Source: Planifilum fulgidum (lineage in GTDB: Bacteria > Bacillota > Bacilli > Thermoactinomycetales > DSM-44946). From it: DNA of 64,000 bases. The position numbers and the translations under genes were made by a program. The DNA lies in NCBI RefSeq assembly GCF_900113175.1, contig NZ_FOOK01000005.1:62001-126000 (forward strand). Reading direction: 5' to 3'. A model generated the notes under the pieces. The model was not told the origin of the DNA and did not search any database. It was given only the letters and a program-made list of their open reading frames with translations. Shown here piece by piece: positions 6,659 through 25,451 of the stretch (positions are counted from its first letter, which is position 1; every line of letters starts with the position of its first letter).

Positions 6659-8315
6659 CGAGCAGACGAAACAACACCTGCTGTGGGCGGATGTCCTCAG
6701 GGGATTTCATCCGCGGACGCCGATGGGGAGGGCGGCCTGGAAGCGGCTTGCCCCTTTCCTCCCCGGCCAGGAGCGGGAGTGGGCGGAAGTTTTGGCGGAA
6801 CAGGAACGGCTCCGGCGGGAGGCGGAAAGGGATCCCGACTGGGGGCGCGGGATCGATGCCTGTCTGTCCCGGGTTCCCGATGTGCTCCCCCTTTTTCCCC
6901 TCCTGCGCGGGAGACAATCCCCGGGCATCTCCGGCTGGTTTCAGCTGAAGGGATTTTTGTGGCAGGTGAAGGCCCTGGGGGAGCGCCTCGCGGAAAAGGG
7001 GCTCCAATCCCTTTTGTCGGATGTGGACCAAGACCTTTGCCAGACCCTTCTTCACCGGCTCAATCCGGATTCTCCCCTCACCCCCTCCTTTTCCCTCGCA
7101 CCCGCCTTCGATGAACGGCTCGGCATTCTCCGCGGGCAGCTGGAACGGCTGGATCGCGAAATCCGGGAGGAGCGGGAGGCGCTGGTCCGGGAAATCGCGG
7201 AGGCATACGGGGTCCGCCCCAACCGGTGGGGGGAATGGGTGGTGGACCGCCGGTCCGATGCCTCCCGCCGGATGGCGGAGGACCGCCGCCTCCTCTTGGT
7301 GCGGGAGAGTGCCTTCGACCGCGTGTTCGTCCCGGCGCTGTCCCCGGAAGGGGAAAGGCGGAAGAAAGAGCGGGCCGAACTGGAAGCCCGGATCGAAGCG
7401 GTGGAGGGGGAGGTGATGCAGAGGCTGGCGGCGGAGTTCGCTCCCCATGTTCCCGCCCTGGAAAGGGCTGCGGAGGCGGTGGCCCGGTTCGATCTGCAGT
7501 GGAGCCGGATGGAGGCCGCCCGAAGATGGGGAGGCTGCCGCCCCCGGTTGTCCAAAGGTTCCATCCGGGTTTCCGGGGGAGTGCATCCGGCGGTGGCCGA
7601 ACGGCTGCGGAAGGAAGGGTGCCGCTTCACACCGGTGGACATCCGGGTGGACAAAGGGGCGACGGTGATCGTCGGTCCCAACATGGGAGGAAAGACGATG
7701 GCCCTTAGAACCCTGGGGCTGATCGTCGCTTTGGCGCAGCACGGATTTTTCGTCCCCGCCGCCCGTTGCGAGATGCCCCTGGTTTCCTTCGTTTCCGGAG
7801 TGATGGGCGACGGCCAGGACGCCAGGGAGGGGCTCAGCACCTTCGGGGCGGAGGTGAAGCGGGTGGCGGAATGGTTCGGGAAAAAAGGGGGGCTTCTCCT
7901 GATCGACGAGATTGGCCGCGGGACCAACCCGGTGGAGGGGGCGGCCCTGTCGGCGGCGGTGACCGCCCGTCTCGCCCGGTCCGACCATTGGGCGGTCCAT
8001 GTCACCCATTACGGGGAAGTGTTGGAGGTGGCGGGGATTCGCAGGTATCGGACGGCCGGGTTGAGGGAGGAGGGGGGAAACCGGGAGGATTGGACGGGGG
8101 ACGACTGGTCTTCCCGGATGGATTTTCGCCTGATCCCCCTGGCCGAGGGGGAGGGAGTTCCCCGCCAGGCGCTTTGGATCGCCGAGGCGATGGGAATGCC
8201 CCGGGAGATCGTGGAGGATGCCCGGCGGCGGATCGCGGGGGAATCGGGGAACGCTGAGGGATCGAGCGATGGAAGGAAGCGGGCGGAAAGACCGAAGGCG
8301 CCGGAAAAGGGGTGA
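6633..8315 (+). CDS. kamC: KamC, MutS-like ATPase of the lysine 5,6-aminomutase reactivase
   Basis: A 560-residue MutS-family ATPase lacking the DNA mismatch-recognition domain and the Smr nuclease domain. The C-terminal ABC-type ATPase carries Walker A VGPNMGGKT (about residues 347-355), a FVSGVMGDGQDA signature region, Walker B LLLIDEIGRGTNP and an H-loop VHVTHYG. The N-terminal half is charged and helical, like the MutS core/clamp. In lysine-fermenting bacteria kamB and kamC are linked to kamDE and are thought to exchange damaged cobalamin; a DNA-repair role is unlikely from context. The ATG lies inside the end of kamB, preceded by GGGA. Confidence 0.88.
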   Translation: MGGGLVFLDEQTKQHLLWADVLRGFHPRTPMGRAAWKRLAPFLPGQEREWAEVLAEQERLRREAERDPDWGRGIDACLSRVPDVLPLFPLLRGRQSPGISGWFQLKGFLWQVKALGERLAEKGLQSLLSDVDQDLCQTLLHRLNPDSPLTPSFSLAPAFDERLGILRGQLERLDREIREEREALVREIAEAYGVRPNRWGEWVVDRRSDASRRMAEDRRLLLVRESAFDRVFVPALSPEGERRKKERAELEARIEAVEGEVMQRLAAEFAPHVPALERAAEAVARFDLQWSRMEAARRWGGCRPRLSKGSIRVSGGVHPAVAERLRKEGCRFTPVDIRVDKGATVIVGPNMGGKTMALRTLGLIVALAQHGFFVPAARCEMPLVSFVSGVMGDGQDAREGLSTFGAEVKRVAEWFGKKGGLLLIDEIGRGTNPVEGAALSAAVTARLARSDHWAVHVTHYGEVLEVAGIRRYRTAGLREEGGNREDWTGDDWSSRMDFRLIPLAEGEGVPRQALWIAEAMGMPREIVEDARRRIAGESGNAEGSSDGRKRAERPKAPEKG

Positions 8316-8405
8316 CGGGCACGCCTCACAAGGGTGCGCACCTTGTCCGACAGAGAAGTTTCAGGGGTTTTTGGAGCGACGATTCATCGCGGGAGGTGGG
8401 AATGC

Positions 8406-10034
8406 GTGGAGGGGAAACTGCGGCTCGATCCCGGGCAGATTGCCCGGGCCCGGCGGGCGGCGGCGGAAATCGCCGCCGATGTGGATCGGTTTATCGCCGA
8501 TCGCACGACGGTCGCCGTGGAGCGAACCGTCCTGCGCCTGATGGGGATTGACGGGGTGGATGCCGAGGGGGTTCCCCTGCCCAATGTTCTGGTGGACCGG
8601 ATCCGGGAGTCGGGGGGAATCGGGATCGGAGCGGCACCCTGGGTGATCAACGCCATGCTTCACACCGGGGCCAGTCCCCAGGAAGTGGCGGAAGGGGTGG
8701 CGGACGGCTCCCTCGACCTGGCCCGCATTCCCTGGGCCGGCCGTGAAGCGATTCGCACCAAGGGGAAGGAATTGGCCGAGGCCGGCCTGGGCCTCATCGA
8801 ACGGAACCGGCGGGAGCGGGAGGAGAGGATTCGCCGGCTGGGCGAGGGAAAACAGCCCTACCTTTATGTGATCGTGGCCACCGGCGACATTTACGAGGAC
8901 GCCGTCCAAGGGAAGGCGGCGGCGCGGCAGGGGGCCGACATCATCGCCGTGATCCGCAGCACGGGGCAAAGCCTGCTCGACTACGTCCCCTACGGGGCGA
9001 CCCGGGAAGGTTACGGCGGGACCTTCGCCACCCAGGAGAATTTCCGGATCATGCGCCGGGCCCTGGATGAAGCCGGCGAAGAGACGGGAAGATATATCCG
9101 CCTCTGCAACTACTGTTCCGGCCTCTGCATGCCGGAGATCGCCGCCATGGGGGCCCTGGAACGGTTGGATGTGATGCTGAACGACGCCCTCTACGGCATT
9201 TTGTTTCGGGACATCAACATGCAGCGGACCCTGATCGACCAGTCCTTTTCCCGGATGATCAACGCCTATGCCGGCATCATCATCAACACCGGGGAGGACA
9301 ACTATCTGACCACCGCCGACGCCGTGGAAGCGGCCCACACGGTGCTGGCTTCCCAGTTCATCAATGAGCAGCTGGCCCTGCTGTCCGGCCTGCCTCCGGA
9401 GCAGATGGGACTGGGGCACGCCTTTGAGATGGACCCGGACCTGGAGGACGGGCTGCTGATGGAGATCGCCCAGGCCCAGCTGGTCCGTCAGATTTTTCCC
9501 GACGCCCCCCTCAAATACATGCCCCCCACCAAGCACATGACCGGAAACATCTTCAAGGGGCATGTCCAGGATGCGATGTTCAACCTGGTCGGCATCCTGA
9601 CGGGACAGGGGATTCAGCTCCTGGGGATGATGACCGAAGCGATGCACACTCCCCATATCCACGACCGGAAGCTGGCCATCGAATCGGCCCAATACATCTT
9701 CAACAATGCCCGCCATTTGGGGGAGGAAGTGCGGTTCCGGCCCGGGGGGCGCATCGAGCGCCGCGCCCGGGAGGTCTTGGACAAAGCCGTCGCCATGCTG
9801 GAGGAAGTCCGGAGGATCGGCCTGTTTCGGGCCATCGAGCGGGGCCTGTTTGCCGACGTGAAGCGGGCCTTCGACGGCGGGCGTGGACTGGAGGGGGTTG
9901 TGGAGAAGGAGGACGGTTACTACAACCCCTTTGAGGAGGCGCTCAGGGAGCGGCTCGGACTTCCCGGAAGGGGGGATGAAGTCGATGGACGTGGATCTCA
10001 CCCGCGTGAAACCCTACGGGGACACGATGAATGA
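8406..10034 (+). CDS. kamD: Lysine 5,6-aminomutase alpha subunit
   Basis: A 542-residue large subunit of adenosylcobalamin- and PLP-dependent D-lysine/L-beta-lysine 5,6-aminomutase (EC 5.4.3.3), which moves the 6-amino group of beta-lysine to C5, giving 3,5-diaminohexanoate. It is recognised by the conserved GIGAAPWVINAMLHTG, VIRSTGQSLLDYVPYG and CNYCSGLCMPEIAAMG stretches of the TIM-barrel. The GTG start is set by GGGAGGTGG eight bases upstream. A longer frame back to 8334 adds 24 residues with no ribosome binding site. It overlaps kamE by 59 nt, so the two subunits are likely translated together. Confidence 0.95.
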   Translation: MEGKLRLDPGQIARARRAAAEIAADVDRFIADRTTVAVERTVLRLMGIDGVDAEGVPLPNVLVDRIRESGGIGIGAAPWVINAMLHTGASPQEVAEGVADGSLDLARIPWAGREAIRTKGKELAEAGLGLIERNRREREERIRRLGEGKQPYLYVIVATGDIYEDAVQGKAAARQGADIIAVIRSTGQSLLDYVPYGATREGYGGTFATQENFRIMRRALDEAGEETGRYIRLCNYCSGLCMPEIAAMGALERLDVMLNDALYGILFRDINMQRTLIDQSFSRMINAYAGIIINTGEDNYLTTADAVEAAHTVLASQFINEQLALLSGLPPEQMGLGHAFEMDPDLEDGLLMEIAQAQLVRQIFPDAPLKYMPPTKHMTGNIFKGHVQDAMFNLVGILTGQGIQLLGMMTEAMHTPHIHDRKLAIESAQYIFNNARHLGEEVRFRPGGRIERRAREVLDKAVAMLEEVRRIGLFRAIERGLFADVKRAFDGGRGLEGVVEKEDGYYNPFEEALRERLGLPGRGDEVDGRGSHPRETLRGHDE

Positions 10035-11065: not shown

Positions 11066-13279
11066 ATGGATTGGACACCGCACAAAAAATTTAGGGCTGG
11101 GGCTGGATTCATGGAGCAGACAGTCAACACAACTGTCCGGCTTTCCCGCAAGGAGAAATATCGGAAAAACAGGACCTACCATCCGATCGTTTGGTTTTTG
11201 ATCGTCGGAACCGCCGTAACCCGCGTCGCCTCATTCATGAGCCTTCCGTTTCTGGCCATTCATCTTTCCGACAACCTCCATCTGAATTCCTCCATGATCG
11301 GCATCATCCTCGGCATGAGCGGCTTGACGGGTGCCCTGGGGGGCTTTTTCGGGGGGTACCTGTCGGACCGGTGGGGGCGCAGGCCGATCATGCTGATCGC
11401 CTTTGCGGCTTGGACCGGGGTTTTTTTCGGTTTCTGGCTCGCGGAACAGCCGCTTCACTTTTTGGTTCTGAACGGATTGAACGGCCTTTGCCGCTCGTTT
11501 TTCGAACCGACCTCCCAGGCCTTGATGGCCGATGTGTCGCGCCCCGAACAGCGCCTCCGCATCTTCAATTTGCGTTACGTCGCCATCAATGTGGGCATGG
11601 TGGTCGGCCCGGTGATTGGCTCCTATCTGTATTATCTCGTCGGCACCCAGGTTTTTCTTTACACCGGAACGGTGTATGCGATATACCTGTTCTTCCTTTT
11701 CAGGATCCTGCTCAAATATCGCCGGGATGCGGCCAAGCGCGGCGGCGAGCACATTCTTTTTTCCGAATGTCTGGCGGTGATCCGGCGGGATCAGGCCCTG
11801 GGGTATTTCGTACTGGCCGGGATTCTGTTTTTTACCGTATACGCCCAAATCGATTCTTCCCTGCCGATTTTTCTCGCGCAATTGGGAAAGAGCCAGCTGT
11901 ATCCCGCCCTGCTCGCCATCAATGCGGGAATCGTGGTGCTGTTTCAGTATTTCGTTTCCCGGTGGACCGAAAAAAAGAGCATTCTGACGAGCCTGCTGGT
12001 CGGAAACTCCTTTGTGATATTTGGATTTTTCACCTTCGCGGCCGGTGAGGAACCCTCCGTTTTCATCACGGGAATCATCCTGATCACCTTCGGGGAGATT
12101 CTGATTTTTCCCGTATCCAGCCTGTTTATCGACCGGCTGGCGGACGATCGGCTGCGCGGGACCTATTATGGCGCCAACCAGTTTTCCCAGTTGGGGCTGT
12201 TTCTGGGGCCGCTGATTGGCGGGTGGCTGCTGGAGGTTGTCGGCGGGCGCAATCTGTGGTGGCTGATGGTGCTGGCCACCCTTTACATCACCTGGTTTTA
12301 CGCCCTGGGATACCGGAAGTACGCGCGCAAAAAGGGTTACAACCTGGTGGACGTCATCCGGCGCGTGCTGGTGGATCTGCGCATGATGGCGCTGTTCAAA
12401 GCGCTGGCTAAATCCGTTCCGATCTTGACGCTGATTGTCCTGTCGGTCCTTCTTTCCTATCGATTCTTTGAAGCTCGGCTGGAAGCCCCGCCAAGAACCC
12501 AGACGGTTCAGGTCCAAATCTCTCCGGAAGCCAATCTGTTCGAGATCGGAAAACAATTGGAGAACAAACAGCTGATTCACAATTACATCCTGTTTCCGCT
12601 CTATGCCACGGGTTATTCGCTCTTCAAGCAGGTGTACATACAGCCCGGCGTGTACCAGATTCCGCGGGAGATGGGCCTGGAGGAAATCATGCGCACGCTC
12701 TCCAAAGGCACCTACCAGGTGGTGATTCCGGAGGGGGCCACGGTTTCCGACATCGCGGACATTCTTTCCTATTACGGCGTCCCGAAGGAAGAGTTTTTAC
12801 GGGCCGCCAACAGGAAGGATTATCCCTTCGATTTTGTCCAACAGATTCCGGATCACCGTCCCTACCGCCTGGAAGGGTATCTGCAGCCGGGGAAATATGA
12901 ATTCCGCGTCGACGCATCGGCGAAGGAGATCGTCGAGACCATGCTGTACCGCTTTGACGAGATGCTCGACGAAAAAACCCGAAAAAAATTGGAAAAAGGG
13001 AATCTCAGCATCGACCAGTGGGTGATCGTCTCCTCCCTGATTGAACAGGTGGAGCCCCATCCGTCCAACCGCCCCTATGTGGCCCGTCTCATGTATGATC
13101 GATTGAATCGGGGGCAGAAATTGGGAATCTGGTCGATTCCCCAACCCTATTCGCGGATCAAGCGCTATTACACGTCCTTGTATCCGGGCCTTCCTCCCGG
13201 TCCGATCAACAATCCGGGGAAGGATGCCCTGCAGTCGGCGATCAACCCCGCGGACAGGCAATCTCCCCCGCAGGAATAA
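11066..13279 (+). CDS. Fusion protein: major facilitator transporter plus MltG/YceG-like endolytic transglycosylase domain
   Basis: 737 residues. Residues about 40-420 form a 12-helix MFS transporter with motif A GYLSDRWGRRP after helix 2. A thirteenth helix near 449-468 (PILTLIVLSVLLSY) leads to an extracytoplasmic MltG-like domain, about 475-730. This contains the LysM-like part (VVIPEGATVSDIADIL), the EGYLQPGKYEF segment, the putative catalytic Glu660 in SSLIEQVE, and GLPPGPINNPG at about 708-718. MltG cleaves nascent glycan strands beside the divisome/elongasome. Compared with stand-alone MltG, the QTDPTVIYG-like segment is replaced and the C-terminal YLYFV...H.F tail is missing. ATG at 11111 is an alternative start; neither has a strong ribosome binding site. 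One continuous frame, no stop or frameshift at the junction. Confidence 0.85.
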   Translation: MDWTPHKKFRAGAGFMEQTVNTTVRLSRKEKYRKNRTYHPIVWFLIVGTAVTRVASFMSLPFLAIHLSDNLHLNSSMIGIILGMSGLTGALGGFFGGYLSDRWGRRPIMLIAFAAWTGVFFGFWLAEQPLHFLVLNGLNGLCRSFFEPTSQALMADVSRPEQRLRIFNLRYVAINVGMVVGPVIGSYLYYLVGTQVFLYTGTVYAIYLFFLFRILLKYRRDAAKRGGEHILFSECLAVIRRDQALGYFVLAGILFFTVYAQIDSSLPIFLAQLGKSQLYPALLAINAGIVVLFQYFVSRWTEKKSILTSLLVGNSFVIFGFFTFAAGEEPSVFITGIILITFGEILIFPVSSLFIDRLADDRLRGTYYGANQFSQLGLFLGPLIGGWLLEVVGGRNLWWLMVLATLYITWFYALGYRKYARKKGYNLVDVIRRVLVDLRMMALFKALAKSVPILTLIVLSVLLSYRFFEARLEAPPRTQTVQVQISPEANLFEIGKQLENKQLIHNYILFPLYATGYSLFKQVYIQPGVYQIPREMGLEEIMRTLSKGTYQVVIPEGATVSDIADILSYYGVPKEEFLRAANRKDYPFDFVQQIPDHRPYRLEGYLQPGKYEFRVDASAKEIVETMLYRFDEMLDEKTRKKLEKGNLSIDQWVIVSSLIEQVEPHPSNRPYVARLMYDRLNRGQKLGIWSIPQPYSRIKRYYTSLYPGLPPGPINNPGKDALQSAINPADRQSPPQE

Positions 13280-15926: not shown

Positions 15927-16406
15927 TCAGGGGTTTTCGATCTTTTTCCAGTCGGTGTGGGGATGTTCGTAGCTGAGCCGCTCATAGGTTTCGAAGCTGT
16001 TGTAACCGCCGCGCTTGAGGCTGTAACTCTGCTTGAAGGAGATCACCCGCCACTTTCCGCCCACATTTCTCACTTTCACCATGTAATCCTTTTTGTCCGC
16101 CTCGCGGTAGATCAGGTAGGTTTTCAGCCCGGGCTGGATGTGAGGATCCTGGGGTGATTCGGTGATGAAGATGGCGGAATTGGAAGGGCGGATTTTCCGG
16201 GTTTCCTCCACGCGCCACCTCAGGTCCTCCGCCTTCTTTTGATCCTGCAGCATGGCTGCGGCCCGTTCCAGGTCTCCCTGGACCCAGACGGCCTTGTAAA
16301 ACTGGACCGCGGCCTGCTCCGCGTCGGAGAGGTCATTGGACTTGCATCCCGTCCACAGGAAAACCGCCGTTAAGATCAACCAAACAGCAGACCAAGGATT
16401 CCTCAA
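15927..16406 (-). CDS. Putative lipoprotein, unknown function
   Basis: A 159-residue secreted protein. A hydrophobic leader (SAVWLILTAVFLW) ends in WTGC, an imperfect lipobox whose Cys would be the lipidation site. The mature part is hydrophilic with a snoaL/NTF2-like feel (DAEQAAVQFYKAVWVQGDLERA...), ending in a basic, aromatic tail. No family is assigned. TTG is chosen because AGGTGG is seven bases upstream; the frame stays open further upstream, but without a start signal. Transcribed alone, convergent to the carboxypeptidase and divergent from fadF. Confidence 0.65.
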   Translation of the reverse strand: MRNPWSAVWLILTAVFLWTGCKSNDLSDAEQAAVQFYKAVWVQGDLERAAAMLQDQKKAEDLRWRVEETRKIRPSNSAIFITESPQDPHIQPGLKTYLIYREADKKDYMVKVRNVGGKWRVISFKQSYSLKRGGYNSFETYERLSYEHPHTDWKKIENP

Positions 16407-16639
16407 TATGGACCACCTCGCCAAAAAACTCCCGCACCGGGAAGAGCGACATTCTGTCTCTGTAGTTTGTGGACCCGCACGGATTTTCATGCGCCGGGGC
16501 GCTCGCCGCCGCAGAATCGGACCCATCTGGGGCCGGTCGGGAAATCCCCTTCGAAAGCCTTTTTCTTCCTTCCCCTCGACAAGAATCCGAAATCCGAGTA
16601 CGATGAAAAGGGTTTCATTTCGGAGGAAGAAAAAATGAA

Positions 16640-16667
16640 TGAATGACCACTCATTTTGTGGTATAAT
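16640..16667 (+). promoter_or_regulatory. fadF promoter with FadR-type operator
   Basis: TGAATGA-CCAC-TCATTTT (16640-16657) matches the Bacillus FadR operator TGAATGAnnnnTCATTCA at 12 of 14 defined positions. It immediately precedes an extended -10 TGGTATAAT (TATAAT 16662-16667), so the repressor would cover the -35 region. In B. subtilis FadR controls fadF-acdA-rpoE and is released by long-chain acyl-CoA; the same logic is inferred here. Confidence 0.8.
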
Positions 16668-16828
16668 TTGTTGCAAACGCGACGTTTTTGAAAAAGCAGA
16701 ATGAACCGTCTTCGGGGCAAGGCCCTGCGGAATGTTCGGGATTCCTTTTGAGGAAACCTTGAGAAGGCAGATCCGAAATCTCCTCCGGTCTGTGCGATCC
16801 CGCATAACGCGTGAAAGGAGTGACACCG

Positions 16829-18925
16829 GTGTCTCTCTTGGAAGTGATCAACCTCATCGCATTTCTTCTGATCGCGGGATATGCCGTATATCTGTTCGCT
16901 TACGTGGTGTACAGCCGGTACACCTTTATCCGCCTCGGAAAACCGGCCAATCTGAAAAAGGATCTGAAGAACCGGCTGAACGAGGTGCTTGTGAACGTTT
17001 TCGGCCAGCGCAAACTGCTCAAGGACAAGAAGAGCGGGATCATGCACGTGGTCATGTTTTACGGTTTCATCATCATTCAATTCGGAGCGATCGACCTGTT
17101 TATCAAAGGGTTGGCGCCGGGTTACCACCTGCCGGTTCCGGCTTATCCGGTGTTCACCCTCCTGCAGGAGATCACGGTTTTTGCCGTTTTGCTGGCGGCC
17201 CTGTACGCCTATTACCGGCGGTTTATCGAGAAGCTGCCGCGGCTGAAACGGGGATGGAAAGCGGGACTGGTGATCTGGTTCCTCACCTCGTTGATGCTTT
17301 CCATCCTGCTGTCCGCCGCCTTTGAACAGCTGTGGCTGGGACATGAAGCCTCCTGGGCGACGCCGGTTTCCTCCCTGATCGCGGCGCCCTTTGCTCCCTG
17401 GTTGTCCGAGGAGGCGGCGGGGGTGCTCTTCTATGTGTTCTGGTGGGCCCATGCCCTGATCCTGTTCACCTTCCTGGTGTACGTGCCGCAGTCGAAGCAC
17501 TTCCACCTGATCGTGGCGCCCATCAACACCTTCCTGAAGCGGCAGGGCCCCCCGGCCAAGCCGTCCCTCATCGATTTTGAGGATGAGTCGGCCACCTCTT
17601 ACGGGGCGGGCAAGATCGAGGATTTTGATCAGAAGCAGCTGATCGATCTGTATGCCTGCGTGGAATGCGGACGCTGCACCAGCGTCTGTCCTGCCGCCGG
17701 AACCGGGAAGATGCTGTCGCCGATGGACCTGATCGTGAAGATGCGGGATCACCTGACCGCCAAAGGAGCGGCCATCACTTCCCGTTCGCCCTGGGTGCCC
17801 GCCTTCGCCTTCAGCGGAGCCAACCAGGCCGCCCTGGGAGTGGAAGTGACCCGGGAGGAGGACGGCTCCTACAATTATCCGATCAAACTGGTCGGCGATG
17901 TGATCACCGAAACGGAATTGTGGGCCTGCACCACCTGCCGGAACTGCGAAGAGGCTTGCCCGGTGATGAACGAGCATGTGGAAAAGATCATCGACATGCG
18001 GCGTTACCTGGTTCTGACCGAAGGTGAGATGCCCGCCGAGGCGGCCCGCACCTTCCAGAACATCGAGCGTCAGGGCAACCCCTGGGGAATCAGCAAGAAG
18101 GACCGCTACAATTGGACGGAGGATCTGGATGTTCCCGTTCCGACGGTGAAGGAACAGAAGGATTTCGAATACCTGCTCTGGGTCGGTTCGATGGGCTCCT
18201 ACGACAACCGGAGCCAGAAAGTCACCCGCGCCCTGGTGCGCCTCCTGCACCATGCGGGGGTCAAGTTCGCCACCCTCGGCAAAAAGGAGAAAAACTCCGG
18301 GGACACGGCCCGGCGCATGGGGAACGAGTTCCTGTTCCAGCAATTGGCGATGGACAACATCCAGCAGTTTGAAAAATATAATGTGAAGAAAATCATCACC
18401 CTGGATCCCCACGCCTACAATGTCTTCAAGAACGAATATCCCGACCTGGGATTCGAGGCGGAGGTTTACCACCATACCCAAATTTTGGCGAAGCTGATCC
18501 GGGAGGGGCGGATCCGTCCGACCAAAGAGGTGAAGGAGCGGGTCACCTATCACGATTCCTGCTACCTGGGCCGCTACAACGACGAGTACGATGCGCCCCG
18601 GTTCATTCTGCAGTCGATCCCCGGCATCGAGCTGGTGGAAATGGAGCGCAACCGCGAAAACGCCATGTGCTGCGGCGCCGGTGGCGGCATGATGTGGATG
18701 GAGGAAAGGGAGGGCGTAAGGGTCAACACGGCCCGGACGAAACAGGCTCTTGCCGTCCGTCCCAGCCTGATCGGCAGCGCCTGCCCCTACTGCCTCACCA
18801 TGCTGAGCGACGGCACCAAGGCGATGGAAGTGGAAGACCAGGTCAAGACGATGGATGTGGCCGAGGTGTTGGAGATGGCCGTCGACTTCGACGACCAGGC
18901 GGAACAGGCGGAAGGGGTTCACTGA
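16829..18925 (+). CDS. fadF: FadF-type membrane Fe-S oxidoreductase (heterodisulfide reductase-like)
   Basis: 698 residues. Several N-terminal membrane helices, similar to the nitrate reductase gamma heme b subunit, are followed by a ferredoxin-like domain with two 4Fe-4S motifs (CVECGRCTSVCP and CTTCRNCEEACP). A C-terminal pair of CCG-type cysteine-rich domains (HDSCYLG, MCCGAGGG) completes it. This is the B. subtilis YwjF/FadF architecture, thought to pass electrons from acyl-CoA dehydrogenase/ETF to the quinone pool. GTG at 16829 is chosen because GAAAGGAG ends eight bases upstream; an in-frame GTG at 16811 overlaps that site. A FadR box lies upstream. The acyl-CoA genes that normally follow it are displaced by the sortase island. 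Confidence 0.9.
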   Translation: MSLLEVINLIAFLLIAGYAVYLFAYVVYSRYTFIRLGKPANLKKDLKNRLNEVLVNVFGQRKLLKDKKSGIMHVVMFYGFIIIQFGAIDLFIKGLAPGYHLPVPAYPVFTLLQEITVFAVLLAALYAYYRRFIEKLPRLKRGWKAGLVIWFLTSLMLSILLSAAFEQLWLGHEASWATPVSSLIAAPFAPWLSEEAAGVLFYVFWWAHALILFTFLVYVPQSKHFHLIVAPINTFLKRQGPPAKPSLIDFEDESATSYGAGKIEDFDQKQLIDLYACVECGRCTSVCPAAGTGKMLSPMDLIVKMRDHLTAKGAAITSRSPWVPAFAFSGANQAALGVEVTREEDGSYNYPIKLVGDVITETELWACTTCRNCEEACPVMNEHVEKIIDMRRYLVLTEGEMPAEAARTFQNIERQGNPWGISKKDRYNWTEDLDVPVPTVKEQKDFEYLLWVGSMGSYDNRSQKVTRALVRLLHHAGVKFATLGKKEKNSGDTARRMGNEFLFQQLAMDNIQQFEKYNVKKIITLDPHAYNVFKNEYPDLGFEAEVYHHTQILAKLIREGRIRPTKEVKERVTYHDSCYLGRYNDEYDAPRFILQSIPGIELVEMERNRENAMCCGAGGGMMWMEEREGVRVNTARTKQALAVRPSLIGSACPYCLTMLSDGTKAMEVEDQVKTMDVAEVLEMAVDFDDQAEQAEGVH

Positions 18926-18951
18926 TCCTCCTTTCCGCCCGGCCGCACAAG

Positions 18952-18985
18952 CTCCCCGAAGGCAGAAGCCTCGGGGAGTTTTTTG
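18952..18985 (+). terminator. Rho-independent terminator of fadF
   Basis: CTCCCCGA-a-GGC stem pairing with GCC-TCGGGGAG (18952-18978), followed by TTTTTTT, 26 nt after the fadF stop. Confidence 0.85.
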
Positions 18986-19042
18986 ATTGTGGTTCGCGTT
19001 TGTGCATAACGTTGGGATCTTTTATCCGTTCCGAACATAAAG

Positions 19043-19080
19043 GCGCACGTCCGCCGCGGAGGGGGTGGACGTGCGCTTTT
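19043..19080. terminator. Terminator-like hairpin
   Basis: A ten-bp perfect stem GCGCACGTCC/GGACGTGCGC (19043-19052 with 19067-19076) followed by TTTT on the plus strand and CCTTT on the minus strand. It lies immediately downstream of the possible minus-strand remnant ending at 19080. Confidence 0.55.
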
Positions 19081-19317
19081 CATTGATTTCTATAAACAGC
19101 GCCATCCGCGATCAGCTGCTTTTGCAGCTCCTTTACGTCAATTTCCTTCGGGATGGCATTTTGCGTCAAAGCGAGGGCTGCGGCGGATCCCGGCCAAGAA
19201 GATTTCCCTCGGGATTTCATCTTTTTTTAAGGAAGGGATTCCGTTGCGGGCGCAGTTGAACCGGTACGAACCATCCGGATTGTTCGGGGCGGCTTTGATG
19301 CAGATCACCCGTTTCAT
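19080..19317 (-). pseudogene. Possible small minus-strand gene or frameshifted remnant, unknown
   Basis: An open frame of 59 codons (19317 to 19138, MKRVICIKAAPNNPDGSYRF...) overlaps a second frame that ends KEIDVKELQKQLIADGAVYR and stops at 19080, directly before a terminator-like hairpin. The second frame's helical, protein-like C-terminus next to a hairpin suggests one gene broken by a frameshift near 19140-19210. No convincing ribosome binding site is present and no family is recognised. It may be entirely non-coding. Confidence 0.25.
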
Positions 19318-19344
19318 GATCCGGCCGTTTTCCGGTGAGTGCCG

Positions 19345-19513
19345 ATCCCGAAATAGGGAAAAAGTCATCGAAAACGCCAAGGGCGGCAAACCGCCCGACA
19401 CGGCCACGCCTTACCTTAATTTCGCCTTCCTGGGCGGGCTGATGTTTTGATCGGCTTTGTGCTGCTCAAATTCCGCAAGGTGAAGGCAGATCTCCATTTC
19501 TCGAAGGGGTCAT
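19345..19513 (+). pseudogene. Decayed LPXTG sorting-signal fragment, paralogous to the tail of the adjacent surface protein
   Basis: The plus frame through 19450 reads EKVIENAKGGKPPDTATPY followed by NFAFLGGLMF. After a one-base shift it continues IGFVLLKFRKVKAD. The tail of the LPXTG protein 1.4 kb downstream reads EKIIGGAKGGALPKTGTPY followed by a membrane helix and RRIRR, so the two are alignable (EK.I..AKGG..P.T.TPY). The sorting motif has decayed (PPDTA for LPxTG) and the membrane helix is split by a frameshift. A terminator hairpin follows at 19520. The upstream part of the gene is not recognisable. Confidence 0.55.
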
Positions 19514-19519
19514 CGCACG

Positions 19520-19546
19520 GGAGCGGGCGCCGGTCCGCTCCTTTTT
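19520..19546 (+). terminator. Rho-independent terminator
   Basis: GGAGCGG/CCGCTCC stem (19520-19526 with 19535-19541) followed by TTTTT; it ends the decayed sorting-signal fragment. Between here and 19817 no gene is supported. Confidence 0.75.
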
Positions 19547-19817
19547 CATGGGAATTACGGGGGCGCGTCGTAGCTTAAGTTCGTCCGACATATCCATGCG
19601 GCAATGTTTCCCCGGGACGCATCTTTTCGTGCAGGCGAAAAATTGCGCCCTTTGGGGGAATCCTCCCGGGGAACGGTTGCGCGAAGGAAGGCGGAGGAAT
19701 TATGATGGAAATAGCTTCCCATTCCGCGGATCAAGAGGGGTTTTTCTGGTAGCGCATCTTGAATGGAATTTGAACATTGCCGCGATTTCGCGAACAATCC
19801 ATGGGAGATGAATCGTT

Positions 19818-20915
19818 TTGGTGAATCGACCCTTTTCCGTGTTCATGGTGCTGCTCCTTTTCGCCGCGATTCCGACGGCTTTTGCCGAGGACGGCCGGGG
19901 GACGGAGGTGGAAGACGAGGCAGGCCCTGCGGGAACCGGTGCGGGAAACCTCGGGAACGGGGCGGAGGAAATTCTTGACGACGGCGATTCAGCGGGGTTT
20001 GACGGAGAAATCTTTCCGCCCCGAAACGAAGATGCCGGCGCCGCCGGCGAGGCGAACGGAAATGAAGAGAGCAGGGGCGAGGAAGAACCGGGAGACGGCA
20101 AGGATGACGGAGAGAAAGCCGTTCCCGGGCTGATCGTCAGCGCGGGGATCGGTTACACGATCGTGGACGGGGAACGGGATTACACGGTGAGCATCGATGC
20201 GCTTCTTCCGTATGAAAAGTCAGCCGACGGAAAATTTGAGATTCTTCTGGACGGGCGGAAACCGGTGGAATGGGACTGGGAGGACGGAGCGGGCGGACTG
20301 AACGCTTCGGCGTCCTTTAAGGTGGACAAGCCGGGTACATACGAAGCTTTCGTAAGATTTAAAGGAAATGTGGACGGCAGAGAGGTCGTCCTGGAGGCCG
20401 GGAAAACCGTCCGGTTTCCCGGAAGGAACTATCGCCTCGAAGTCACCTATGACGGAAAGCGGACCTTCGGCGGAAAGCTGTCGGGCGTGAAGGAAGCGAA
20501 GGGGACCTGGTTCATCGGGGTTTATGATCACCGCAGGGAGGACCGGTTGCTGGAGGAACATTGTTCCGATTCCTTCTCCTCCCTTGCGCATGCGCACACT
20601 TTCAAGAAGCTGAAGCCGGGAACCTATGATGTGTTGGTGACCTTTGGCGGCGTGGCTGACGGCATCGAGGTGGGCGCCACCGGCATTCTGAGAGGGGTGG
20701 AGATCAAGGGGGACGGCACCGGCAAGATCCGGGTTTCGGACCAATCCCCCTCAAAGGCGGCCGACGATCCCGGCAAAGGGGAAAAAATCATCGGAGGCGC
20801 CAAGGGAGGCGCGCTGCCGAAGACGGGCACCCCTTATCCCTTCTTCCTTTTGTCGGGGTGGTTGATGCTCTCGGCCGGACTTGTCCTCATGATCCGAAGG
20901 ATTCGGCGAACCTGA
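19818..20915 (+). CDS. LPXTG-anchored cell-surface protein with duplicated beta domain
   Basis: 365 residues. Signal peptide (about 1-24, VFMVLLLFAAIPTAFA), an acidic Gly/Glu/Asp-rich linker to about residue 100, then two related segments ending KPGTYEAFVRF.GNVDG and KPGTYDVLVTFGGVADG (an internal duplication of an Ig-like beta unit). The C-terminal sorting signal is LPKTG near 333-337, a hydrophobic helix and RRIRRT. It should be covalently attached to the wall by the sortase encoded 300 bp downstream. GTG start; the ribosome binding site (GGGAG) is somewhat distant. Binding partner or function unknown. Confidence 0.82.
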   Translation: MVNRPFSVFMVLLLFAAIPTAFAEDGRGTEVEDEAGPAGTGAGNLGNGAEEILDDGDSAGFDGEIFPPRNEDAGAAGEANGNEESRGEEEPGDGKDDGEKAVPGLIVSAGIGYTIVDGERDYTVSIDALLPYEKSADGKFEILLDGRKPVEWDWEDGAGGLNASASFKVDKPGTYEAFVRFKGNVDGREVVLEAGKTVRFPGRNYRLEVTYDGKRTFGGKLSGVKEAKGTWFIGVYDHRREDRLLEEHCSDSFSSLAHAHTFKKLKPGTYDVLVTFGGVADGIEVGATGILRGVEIKGDGTGKIRVSDQSPSKAADDPGKGEKIIGGAKGGALPKTGTPYPFFLLSGWLMLSAGLVLMIRRIRRT

Positions 20916-20929
20916 GTCGGGCGCACTTC

Positions 20930-20965
20930 CTCACCACCTTCTGCGCGGGGTGGGCCCTTTTTTAT
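20930..20965 (+). terminator. Weak terminator after the LPXTG gene
   Basis: CACCACC ... GGGGTGG can pair and GGGCCC precedes TTTTTTATT. The stem is short and imperfect. The remaining bases to 21228 contain no supported gene. Confidence 0.4.
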
Positions 20966-21228
20966 TGGCAGCCGGATGACGCGGCGTTTTGAGATAGGAC
21001 CGGGGTGGAACCGGGCTCCGGAAGGCTCGAAACCGGAGGATTCCGGATGTGCGGGGATTGTCGTCCCCGACGGAAGGGCCGCCTTCGGCGCGGGTTTCCG
21101 GAGAAGGGGCGCCGCTCCGATGCGGGTCCTGCGGACGGTTGCGGAATCCCGCCGGACCCGATATCATGAAAATGGACTGATGTGGCCGTTTTTCAGCGCA
21201 ATTCGCCCACGAGGAGCGGTTTCATCTC

Positions 21229-21906
21229 ATGGGACGGAGACAGGGAAATGCCCACGGGAGGAGGAAAGCGGACGTGGTTGTCCGTTCGGTCGCCATCGCG
21301 CTGATCGTCATCGGGGCTTCCATGCTCCTCTACAACGGGTATCAATGGTGGGATCAGATCCGCGTGGCGGTGCATGATCCGGAACTGGCGATGTCGATCG
21401 CGGACAACTGGGATGACCGGAACTGGCAGAAGCCCCTCAAGCAGGGGGTGGATACCGACTGGAAGCCGGAGATCGGCGAGGAGATCGGCCAGTTGATCAT
21501 CCCCCGGATCGGGGCGATCCTTCCCATCATCGAGGGGACCGACGAGGAGGAGTTGGCCAAGGGGGTCGGCCATTACGTGGGATGGGGAACCGTGCTTCCC
21601 GGGGAGACGGGACATGCGGTCCTCTCCGGACACCGGGACACGGTATTTCGCCGGGCCGGGGAATTGAAGGACGGTGACCGGCTGTACGTGAAGATGAAGG
21701 ACGGGAACGTCTACACCTATCAGATTCGCAAGCGCTGGATCACCCACGCGGAGGACCGGACGGTGATTGTGCCCAAAAAGGAGCCGATTTTGACGCTGAC
21801 CACCTGCTATCCCTTCGATTACGTCGGGAATGCGCCGGACCGTTACATCATCCAGTCCGAACTGATCGAGGTGCGCACACCCGCGGCGAATCAACGTCTC
21901 AAATAG
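21229..21906 (+). CDS. Class D sortase
   Basis: A 225-residue membrane-anchored transpeptidase. A basic N-terminus and one membrane helix (about 14-34, VVVRSVAIALIVIGASMLLY) precede the sortase beta-barrel. The catalytic triad is visible as His135 (VLSGHRD), Cys193 (TLTTCYPF) and Arg205 (APDRYII). The GIPRIG-like PRIGAILPIIEG segment and length fit class D sortases of spore-formers. Its substrate is presumably the LPKTG protein just upstream. Class D enzymes in other bacilli act on aerial or sporulating cells; such a role here is inference. ATG preceded at 12 nt by GAGGAG. Confidence 0.9.
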   Translation: MGRRQGNAHGRRKADVVVRSVAIALIVIGASMLLYNGYQWWDQIRVAVHDPELAMSIADNWDDRNWQKPLKQGVDTDWKPEIGEEIGQLIIPRIGAILPIIEGTDEEELAKGVGHYVGWGTVLPGETGHAVLSGHRDTVFRRAGELKDGDRLYVKMKDGNVYTYQIRKRWITHAEDRTVIVPKKEPILTLTTCYPFDYVGNAPDRYIIQSELIEVRTPAANQRLK

Positions 21907-21922
21907 AAGATGGGATCTTGTG

Positions 21923-21993
21923 ACAGGAGCGGCCCGTCCGCTCCTGTTCGCGTTTCGGAAAAGAAGGCGCCACCTCCGGCGGGGAGTGGCGCC
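21923..21993 (+). terminator. Two consecutive hairpins after the sortase gene
   Basis: ACAGGAGCGG/CCGCTCCTGT (21923-21947) and GGCGCCAC/GTGGCGCC (21966-21993). Both are perfect stems with only weak T-tracts (TTCGCGTTT, GTTTGCCTT). They probably separate the sortase island from the thiolase operon. Confidence 0.5.
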
Positions 21994-22057
21994 GTTTGCC
22001 TTGCAAATGGGATTTCCCGCCTGCCTGCTCCGCGGATGAATGCCAGAAATAACCCGG

Positions 22058-22086
22058 TTGTCAAAAGAATATTCAAAGGATATGCT
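22058..22086 (+). promoter_or_regulatory. Sigma-A promoter of the thiolase-icmF operon
   Basis: TTGTCA (22058-22063), 17-bp spacer, TATGCT (22081-22086), 85 bp before the thiolase start. No FadR-type box is visible at this promoter, unlike the one at fadF. Confidence 0.7.
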
Positions 22087-22118
22087 AAAAGGGAAGCGTT
22101 TTCTTTTTGCACGGAACC

Positions 22119-22132
22119 CGAGCGAGCGCTCG
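22119..22132. promoter_or_regulatory. Candidate TetR-family operator in the thiolase leader
   Basis: CGAGCGAGCGCTCG contains the perfect palindrome CGAGCGCTCG (22123-22132), between the promoter and the ribosome binding site of the thiolase gene. A TetR-family repressor is encoded within the same operon, so autoregulation at this site is an inference. Confidence 0.4.
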
Positions 22133-22170
22133 ATAAGGTTTTCGCGCAACATATACGGAGGTGACAGCCT

Positions 22171-23349
22171 GTGGCGGAAACGGTGGTATTGGGCGGTGCC
22201 CGCACCCCCTTTGGCAAGTTCGGCGGAGCGCTGAAGGATCTGCCCGCCGTGGAGCTGGGCGGGATCGCCATCCGGGAGGCCCTGAACCGGTCGAAAGTCC
22301 CGGACGATCAGGTGGATGAAGTGATCATGGGCATGGTGTTGCAGGGCGGGGCCGGACAGATTCCTTCCCGTCAGGCGGCCCGTCGGGCGGGTCTTCCCTG
22401 GGAAGTGCAGACGGAGACGATCAACAAGGTGTGCGCCTCGGGCCTGAGAAGCGCCACCCTCGCCGATCAGGTGATCCGCGCCGGCGATGCGGACGTGGTG
22501 GTGGCCGGCGGGATGGAGAGCATGAGCAACGCCCCCTATATCGTTCCCGGCGCTCGCTGGGGGCAGCGGATGGGGGACGGGAAGTTCATCGACCTGATGA
22601 TCCACGACGGGTTGTGGTGCGCCTTTGACGGGGTGCACATGGTGGTGCACGGAAGCAATGTGGCGGCCGAGTACGCGGTGAGCCGGGAAGAGCAGGACGA
22701 GTGGGCCCTGCGCAGTCACCGGAGGGCCATCGCCGCCATCGATTCCGGCAAGTTGGCGGAAGAGATCGTCCCGGTGACGGTGAAGTCCCGCAAGAAAGAG
22801 GTGGTGGTGGATCAGGACGAATCCCCCCGCCGGGACACTAGTCTGGAAAAGCTGGCATCCCTTCCCCCGGTTTTCCTGAAGGACGGATCGATTACCGCCG
22901 GCAACGCTCCGGGGGTGAACGACGGGGCGGCGGCCTTGGTGCTCGCCTCCGCCAAGAAAGCGGAAGAGCTGGGCGTAAGGCCGATGGCGCGCATTCTCGG
23001 ACACGCCGCCGTGGGGATGGAGGCCCGCTATTTCCCGATCACTCCGGCCTATGCGGTGAAAAAGCTCCTGAAAAAACACGATCTGACCATCGATGACATC
23101 GATCTGTTCGAAGTGAACGAAGCCTTCGCCGCCGTCACCCTGACCAACGGGAAAATCCTCGGTTGGGACCAAGAGAAAGTAAACGTGAACGGCGGTGCGG
23201 TGGCCCTGGGTCACCCGATCGGAGCCAGCGGCGCCCGCATTTTGCTGACGCTCATCTACGAGCTGCGTCGCCGCGGCGGCGGACTGGGGGTGGCCGCCAT
23301 CTGCAGCGGGGCCGCCCAGGGCGACGCCGTCCTGGTCCGGGTGGATTGA
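22171..23349 (+). CDS. atoB: Acetyl-CoA C-acetyltransferase (thiolase)
   Basis: 392 residues, the typical length of degradative thiolases; interconverts acetoacetyl-CoA and two acetyl-CoA. Catalytic Cys88 lies in INKVCASGL, the NEAFA motif and the histidine in [14 protein letters not shown] follow, and the second cysteine is in [11 protein letters not shown] start with GGAGGTGA upstream. First gene of an operon of short-chain acyl-CoA enzymes. It could process acetoacetyl-CoA derived from fatty acids or from the lysine pathway; a MmgA-like or longer-chain specificity cannot be excluded. Confidence 0.93.
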
Positions 23350-23388
23350 CATTTCCCGGGAAATAAAACATCCGAGGAGGTTGATCCG

Positions 23389-24246
23389 ATGGAGATTCGC
23401 CGATTCAGCGTCATCGGAGCCGGTCAAATGGGAAGCGGCATCGCCCAGGTGGCGGCCCAGGCCGGAATGGAAGTGGTGATGCACGACCTGGAGGAGGAAC
23501 GGGTCCAAAGGGGACTCCGCGGAATCGAGAAAAACCTGAAGCGGTCGGTGGACAAGGGGCGGATCGCGGAGGAGGAAATGACGCAGGTCCTGAACCGGAT
23601 CCGCACGACGACGGATCTGAAGGAGGCGGCCGAACATGCGGACATCGTGGTGGAGGCCGTCGTCGAAAACATGTCCGTGAAGCAGGAGGTGTTCCGGAAA
23701 CTGGACGAATGGTGCCCGGAACACGCCATCCTGGCCAGCAACACCTCTTCCCTTCCGATCACGGAGATCGCCGCCGTGACGAAGCGGCCGGAAAAGGTGA
23801 TCGGGATGCACTTCATGAATCCGGTGCCGGTGATGAAGCTGGTGGAAGTGATCCGGGGCCTGGCCACCGCCGACGAGGTGTATGCGGAGGTGGAGGCCCT
23901 GGCGCGGAGGATGGGCAAGACCCCGGTGGAAGTGAAGGATTTCCCCGGCTTTGTCTCCAACCGGGTCCTGATGCCGATGATCAACGAGGCCATTTATGCG
24001 GTCTATGAGGGGGTAGCCACCCCGGAAGCGGTGGATGAGGTGATGAAGCTGGGGATGAATCATCCGATGGGGCCCCTCACCCTGGCCGATTTCATCGGGT
24101 TGGACACCTGCCTCTACATCATGGAGACCCTGTATGAAGGGTTCGGCGATCCCAAGTACCGGCCCTGTCCCCTTCTCCGCAAATATGTGAAGGCGGGTTG
24201 GTTGGGCCGCAAGACGGGACGCGGATTTTACGTGTACGATTCGTGA
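23389..24246 (+). CDS. hbd: 3-hydroxybutyryl-CoA dehydrogenase
   Basis: 285 residues; NAD(P)-dependent oxidation of 3-hydroxybutyryl-CoA to acetoacetyl-CoA (or the reverse). The N-terminal Rossmann fold has [11 protein letters not shown], the catalytic region contains [12 protein letters not shown] and HFMNPVPVM, and the C-terminal helical domain carries [10 protein letters not shown]. Matches the single-domain Hbd/MmgB form without a fused hydratase. Preceded by CGAGGAGG. Sits directly after the thiolase, the next enzyme in the same pathway. Confidence 0.94.
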
Positions 24247-24305
24247 CCCGTCGCTTGCCCCTTGAAGAGACGGTCAGGCCGGCGGTCGGACGAGGAGGAT
24301 GTTTC

Positions 24306-25451
24306 ATGGAATTCACCTTTACTCACGAGCAGGAAATGATGCGCCGGATGGTCCGGGATTTCGCCCGGGATCGGATCGCCCCGGCCGTCAAGGAGATGGA
24401 TGAAGAGGACAAATTTCCCCGGGCGGTCATCGACGAGATGGCCAAGCTCGGATTGATGGGCATTCCCATTCCGGAAAAGTGGGGCGGAGCGGGAGCCGAT
24501 TTCATCTCCTACATCCTGGCCCTGGAGGAGATTTCCCGCGTCAGCGCCACCGTGGGCGTGATCGTCGCCGTCCACACCTCGGTGGGGACGTTCCCCATCC
24601 TGCGCTACGGGACCGAAGAGCAGAAGAAGAAATACGTCACCCGCCTGGCCCGCGGGGAATATCTGGGCGCCTTCGCCCTGACCGAACCCCACGCAGGCTC
24701 CAACGCGGCGGCGATCCGGACCCGGGCCACGAGGGTCGGGGACAAGTACATTTTGGACGGAAGCAAAATATTCATCACCAACGCGAATGAGGCGGACGTG
24801 TACATCACCTTTGCCGTCACCGATCCGGACAAGGGAACGAAAGGCATCACCGCCTTTATCGTGGAAAAGGACACCCCCGGGTTTTCCGTCGGGAAAAAGG
24901 AGAAAAAGATGGGGCTCGGCGGCTCCAACACCTCCGAGTTGATTTTCGAGCGGGCGGAGGTTCCCGTCGAAAACCGCCTCGGGGAAGAAGGCCAGGGATA
25001 TGAAATCGCCCTGTCCAACCTGGCCGGCGGGCGAATCGGCATCGGGGCCCAGGCCCTCGGCATCGCGGCGGCGGCGCTGGAACAGGCCACGGCCTACGCC
25101 AAGGAACGGGAGCAGTTCGGCAAACCGATCGCCGCGCAGCAGGCGATCCAGTTCAAACTGGCCGACATGGCCACGCGGGTGGAGGCGGCCCGTCTCCTGG
25201 TCTACCGGGCCGCCTGGCTCCGGCAGCAGGGACATCCCTGCAAGAAGGAGGCGGCGATGGCCAAGATGTTTGCCTCCGACACGGCCATGGCCATCGCCAC
25301 CGAAGCGGTCCAGATCTTCGGCGGATACGGATACACCCGGGAATACCCGGTGGAGCGGTTCTTCCGGGATGCCAAGATCACCCAGATCTATGAGGGAACC
25401 AACGAGATCCAGCGGATTGTCATCGCCGGGGAACTGCTGAAGGGGCGGTAA
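24306..25451 (+). CDS. acdA: Acyl-CoA dehydrogenase 1 (short-chain type)
   Basis: A 381-residue flavoprotein that dehydrogenates acyl-CoA to 2-enoyl-CoA, passing electrons to ETF. It has the family motifs [11 protein letters not shown] and [18 protein letters not shown], and the catalytic glutamate in [11 protein letters not shown] typical of short-chain (butyryl-type) enzymes. ATG at 24306 follows CGAGGAGG; upstream in-frame sequence belongs to the hbd-acd junction. Equivalent to AcdA next to fadF in Bacillus. FadF, 5 kb upstream, is its likely electron acceptor via ETF. Confidence 0.93.

Follow-up and report, generated by a model that had tools for sequence, protein, structure and literature searches.

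In Planifilum fulgidum, three gene remnants meet in a short stretch of DNA upstream of a surface-protein gene. At first sight the stretch looks like a single decayed gene; it is very probably a deletion scar in the interval between fadF and a sortase gene; the homologies of the pieces, their order, the gaps between them and their reading frames can all be followed in alignments to a genome of the same genus. An earlier note on this DNA had recognized the fossil of a second LPXTG-type surface protein whose tail aligns with that of its live neighbour, and the tail is indeed there. The open frame upstream of it does not derive from a surface protein; it belongs to the start of an MFS transporter gene. 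The features of the interval are listed in Table 1.

Table 1. Features of the fadF-sortase interval, in positions of the window.
Feature	Position	Strand	Evidence
fadF-like Fe-S oxidoreductase, intact left anchor	16811-18925	+	Pfam CCG and Fer4; 16000-19190 matches G002 at 91.6%
Terminator-like stem between fadF and FAD-oxidoreductase remnant	19039-19080	+	G002 has similar sequence at this place
3' end of PF12831-type FAD oxidoreductase gene	19080-19190	-	Single-base gap in alignment to the 3' end of the G002 gene
5' end of MFS transporter gene, cut near residue 53 of the G002 protein	19198-19331	+	84.6% DNA identity to L031 10362-10220
Tail of lost LPXTG-type surface-protein gene, with sorting signal and split membrane helix	19332-19475	+	Alignments to L031; shuffle test
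Degenerate sorting motif PPDTA	19391-19405	+	LPETA in one G002 gene, LPETS in the other
Terminator-like stem with T run	19519-19542	+	Resembles sequence upstream of both G002 surface-protein genes
Live LPXTG-type surface protein, 365 aa, LPKTG	19818-20915	+	Gram_pos_anchor 6e-5
Sortase, intact right anchor	21229-21906	+	Pfam Sortase PF04203 1.5e-31; 92% to G002

Genomes compared

The window is the whole stretch of 64,000 nucleotides that was analysed, corresponding to positions 62001-126000 of contig C5 in its own genome, G000. The genus is represented by two further genomes, G002 (100% complete, 70 contigs) and G001, a 67% complete draft in 430 contigs. The G002 copy of the fadF-sortase interval lies on one contig (locus L031, minus strand).

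Two joints between fadF and the sortase

The order of the interval in G002 is fadF, a convergent FAD oxidoreductase gene (PF12831, 2.9e-104), a glyoxalase-like gene (PF00903, 1.8e-12), an MFS transporter gene (PF07690, 2.3e-46), two tandem surface-protein genes and the sortase gene. The longer frame of the first surface-protein gene (gene 1) matched no Pfam family at E 0.01. Window positions 16000-19190 align with L031 15786-12589, and the MFS segment follows with the coordinates given in Table 1. Positions 19332-19464 then align with 7803-7669 (74.8% identity) or, alternatively, 19331-19475 with 6548-6402 (72.1%), and 21244-24500 align with 6230-2971 (89.4%). G002 DNA that has no counterpart in the window amounts to 2.2 kb at the first joint (19190/19198) and to 2.4 kb at the second (19331/19332), or 3.7 kb should the tail derive from gene 2. 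A strong match to one parent breaks off at each joint where the match to the other sets in, and alignments beyond these points are gapped and patchy; the breakpoints are located only to within a few bases.

The FAD oxidoreductase remnant ends in ...SAAALALTQNAIPKEIDVKELQKQLIADGAVYRN in the window (last residues and stop read by eye), as compared with ...TAAALALTQNTIPKEIDVKELQKQLIADGAVL in G002. Window 19199-19330 matches residues 7-53 of the G002 MFS protein, itself an MFS_1 protein by Pfam, at 68% identity (tblastn, E 9e-13). The MFS remnant and the surface-protein tail lie in the same reading frame, a 68-aa frame with a TTG start (19244-19450) that stays open across the second joint; presumably they share it by chance.

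The ancestor of the genus would have carried fadF, the convergent FAD oxidoreductase gene, the glyoxalase-like gene, the MFS transporter gene, at least one surface-protein gene and the sortase gene. In the lineage of the window, one deletion would have joined the 3' end of the FAD oxidoreductase gene to the start of the MFS gene, and another would have brought this start up against the tail of a surface-protein gene. The stub would further have lost the leucine of its motif and gained a frameshift in its helix. Most of the loss thus described would have come about by large deletion, which would also have removed the MFS, glyoxalase-like and FAD oxidoreductase genes. The order of these events, and their direction as loss in the window and not gain in G002, are what we infer from the alignments; partial genes flank both sides of each joint, which argues for loss rather than for the gain of whole genes. 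Possibly the joints in the window, or the frameshifts in G002 described below, are assembly errors.

Gene order outside the genus was searched by tblastn in 53 sortase loci with flanks of up to 10 kb, some shorter (one of them, L049, is of this genus). The sortase matched in these loci, and no match to fadF, the MFS transporter, the FAD oxidoreductase, the glyoxalase, a thiolase or the live surface protein was found at E 1e-6 and above 28% identity.

The surface-protein tail

Window 19340-19475 was aligned locally, as DNA, to four surface-protein genes, with scores of 254 (live gene), 351 and 326 (the two genes of G002) and 248 (G001 gene). Among 500 dinucleotide shuffles the highest scores were 146, 146, 140 and 145, respectively, so that no shuffle attained the real score in any of the four comparisons. 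The fossil is short, and tblastn with the live protein alone gives only a weak match (residues 322-356 to window 19358-19462, 48.6% over 35 residues, E 0.003), as might be expected of a chance similarity. That explanation is rejected by the shuffles, and the position and the neighbours of the tail agree with them; we consider it next to impossible. At the DNA level 19379-19486 also matches three genomes from other families of the order (70-71%, E 8e-6 to 2e-4). A Pfam search of the 68-aa frame returned no family at E up to 0.1, and plasmid records searched with region 19000-20000 gave no match. A search of the genus with PF00746 at a lax limit of E 1 yielded 26 rows, 13 of them over the cut-off, and the remnant is absent from them; at this limit the family also matches in 13 of 14 control genomes, and is over the cut-off in 2.

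The split and frameshifted helix described in the earlier note was confirmed. EKVIENAKGGKPPDTATPY lies in the ORF at 19244-19450, whereas a different frame encodes LIGFVLLKFRKVK, the latter half of the helix. The motif frame meets a stop at 19450 and the remaining helix lies in the other frame, so that helix and basic tail are not in frame with the motif. Two losses from the motif itself had been proposed, of the leucine and of the final glycine. The former stands, as a change of Leu to Pro, and it is the only departure of the remnant from the motif. The latter is no sign of decay because 13 of 16 tails in the genus end in Ala (11) or Ser (2); only 3, that of the live protein among them, end in Gly. 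These counts come from a motif scan of 17 of the 20 loci of the PF00746 genus search (L119, L122 and L130, all below the cut-off, were omitted). A tail was found in 15 of the 17 (none in L126 and L129), which makes 16 tails with repeats counted once, including those of two broken genes (G002 gene 1 and one on contig C25 of G000). A terminal alanine is thus normal for the genus, and caution is called for before reading it as decay.

Whatever the frame, nearly the entire surface-protein gene is gone. The motif is PPDTA and not LPXT(G/A/S), and what lies upstream of it is the start of an MFS transporter gene and not a surface-protein domain; a fossil of a whole gene was rejected on this last ground. 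The same MFS sequence suggests that the remnant has no signal peptide. Having no surface-protein domain, a degenerate motif and a broken frame, the remnant is taken to be neither expressed nor functional, and its homology to the LPXTG family, above chance in both shuffles and alignments, is that of a pseudogene.

The terminator behind the tail

The fossil had been credited with a terminator of its own. Similar terminators precede both G002 surface-protein genes, however, and the one behind the tail is therefore not the fossil's alone. It is 90% identical over 42 bases to that after the G002 MFS gene and 88% identical over 33 bases to that after G002 surface-protein gene 1, and it seems to be part of a unit repeated upstream of these genes. 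Region 18800-22200 holds 12 terminator-like sites, where shuffled sequence has 4.0 (sd 2.3).

On one side of the tail is the start of the MFS gene and on the other the terminator most like that after the G002 MFS gene, as would be the case had the tail been pasted into the MFS gene by recombination and not left behind by a deletion running into a surface-protein gene. We regard this as quite improbable, since like sequence lies upstream of both G002 surface-protein genes and a deletion gives the same picture in one event.

Origin of the tail and of the live gene

A distance of 0.34 kb separates the end of the remnant from the live gene downstream, and the tails of the two align, as would be expected if the stub had arisen by recent tandem duplication of the live gene and had then decayed chiefly through point mutations. 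This reading, essentially that of the earlier note, is unlikely. Upstream of the tail the sequence is that of an MFS transporter and not of a surface protein, and the tail is nominally nearer to the G002 genes than to the live tail, a difference that is not significant and is weak evidence. Matching sites number 92/126 for G002 gene 1, 89/126 for gene 2, 81/123 for the live tail and 77/126 for the G001 gene. In paired counts, gene 1 leads the live tail by 22 to 13 (p 0.18), gene 2 leads it by 19 to 14 (p 0.49) and gene 1 leads gene 2 by 19 to 16 (p 0.74); over the G001 gene, gene 1 leads by 29 to 14 (p 0.03) and gene 2 by 22 to 10 (p 0.05). Six such comparisons were made for the fossil and all p values are uncorrected. 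Of the proposed duplicate there remains a decayed second surface-protein gene, which gene order in the two same-genus genomes bears out; descent as a copy of the live gene is not supported, the tail being no nearer to that gene than to those of G002.

Within a deletion scar, the place of the live gene can be accounted for by a third ancestral copy or, if there were only two, by a mosaic origin of the live gene. Residues 128-357 of the live protein are 66% identical to G002 gene 1. A rather doubtful version, which we nevertheless keep in view, starts from an ancestor with just two surface-protein genes. The stub would be the first of these, and the live gene would occupy the position of the second, gene conversion having replaced its body with sequence from the first. 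In favour of this version, the tail of G002 gene 1, the spacer and the start of gene 2 match window 19332-19898 in roughly collinear order, and the ends of the live gene are nominally nearer to gene 2 (48/57 vs 44/57 in the first 57 bases, and 58/87 vs 47/84 in the last 87). However, of 25 windows running from the terminator through the live gene, 20 are more identical to gene 1 than to gene 2, the terminator itself among them (19506-19565, 43/60 to gene 1 vs 29/47 to gene 2), and a third copy would explain this without conversion. Over its whole tail the live gene sides with neither G002 gene (19 to 21, p 0.87).

The intact live protein is the likely substrate of the adjacent sortase, which we take to be a putative class D enzyme; the pairing is one that we infer. 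The spacer between the two genes (20916-21136) shows no sign of a further surface-protein remnant: in four comparisons, with the live gene and with pieces from G002 and G001, local scores stayed below the best of 100 shuffles.

Broken-looking genes elsewhere in the genus

In G001, fadF is followed by the end of the FAD oxidoreductase gene fused to the end of the glyoxalase gene, and by an MFS gene that stays open to the end of contig C248. The end of contig C201 repeats 36 bases of the C248 end (compared by eye), and C201 goes on with the end of the MFS gene, one surface-protein gene (LPETS), a GntR-like regulator and a sugar-kinase-like gene. Locus L049, which agrees with contig C269 of G001 in length and in its match to the window and is taken for that contig, carries a permease-like gene, a 6-phosphogluconate-dehydrogenase-like gene and the sortase, and C201 and C269 presumably adjoin. 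The regulator, kinase, permease and dehydrogenase were named by eye and not by family search. A gluconate-like block thus seemingly lies between the surface-protein gene and the sortase in G001 (L032, L049); none is found there in the window or in G002.

More of the FAD oxidoreductase gene is kept in the window than in G001, and G001 keeps parts of the glyoxalase and MFS genes that are missing from the window. Since each keeps parts that the other lacks, neither joint derives from the other; the losses were separate and the genes predate both. G002 itself has the FAD oxidoreductase gene (L031 11267-12700) and surface-protein gene 1 (7642-8788) each split over two frames, which may reflect decay or sequencing error. 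Broken-looking genes are therefore found in this interval in all three genomes of the genus.

The genome of the window, which has two sortase matches, contains at least two broken-looking surface-protein genes, damaged by different means. On contig C25 (L033 5200-5748) a second surface-protein tail, with LPKTA, is found in a frame of only 61 aa that starts directly behind the end of a transposase (DDE_3, 2.9e-14), inside which the contig ends; its counterpart on G002 contig C16 has a frame of 169 aa. The turnover of sortase substrates suggested earlier is supported by the gene order in the two same-genus genomes, by the broken-looking genes in each of the three genomes and by the transposase abutting a truncated surface-protein gene. 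More tentatively, the fadF-sortase interval might be a cassette prone to deletion and frameshift, whose surface-protein genes and adjoining genes would break repeatedly and in each species separately, with substrates turning over far faster than the sortase; we find this conceivable but would not yet lean towards it.

Elsewhere in the window, a 737-aa frame (11066-13279, plus strand) encodes a fusion of an MFS transporter (PF07690, 1.9e-51) with a YceG-like domain (PF02618, 5.6e-45). Near end-to-end matches to both parts were found in at least 7 of 26 genomes (G000, G001, G002, G012, G019, G021 and G023), those in G001 and G002 having 2 and 1 internal stops, respectively. From these matches, the fusion looks conserved.

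Comparison with known systems

Like LPXTG cell-wall-anchored proteins, the remnant has a sorting motif and a hydrophobic helix tail, homologous to those of members in the same genus. It differs in being a tail only, in reading PPDTA, in having its helix in two frames and in lacking a Pfam match. The literature search found no paper on sortase together with Planifilum. In Bacillus anthracis, LPNTA substrates of a class D sortase (SrtC) are described (PMC3208642, PMC4498605), and the final Ala of that motif is shared by 11 of the 16 genus tails; the live protein of the window differs in having LPKTG, and the remnant in having Pro for Leu. The sortase D of C. perfringens favours LPQTGS (PMC4498605), so class D enzymes vary among themselves. 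The same paper places the sortase D gene of C. perfringens in one operon with a hypothetical anchor protein. The window and 4 of 8 further loci of the order likewise have a surface-protein gene immediately upstream of the sortase; these eight loci, L004-L011, span about 3-4 kb each, and a sortase farther away would be missed in them. The window differs in that one of its substrate genes is a remnant. As in other bacterial pseudogenes that arose by deletion, partial genes of several families are joined at two breakpoints, with no difference in kind; the scar is otherwise ordinary genome erosion, and it documents the loss of a likely sortase substrate beside a sortase that was retained.
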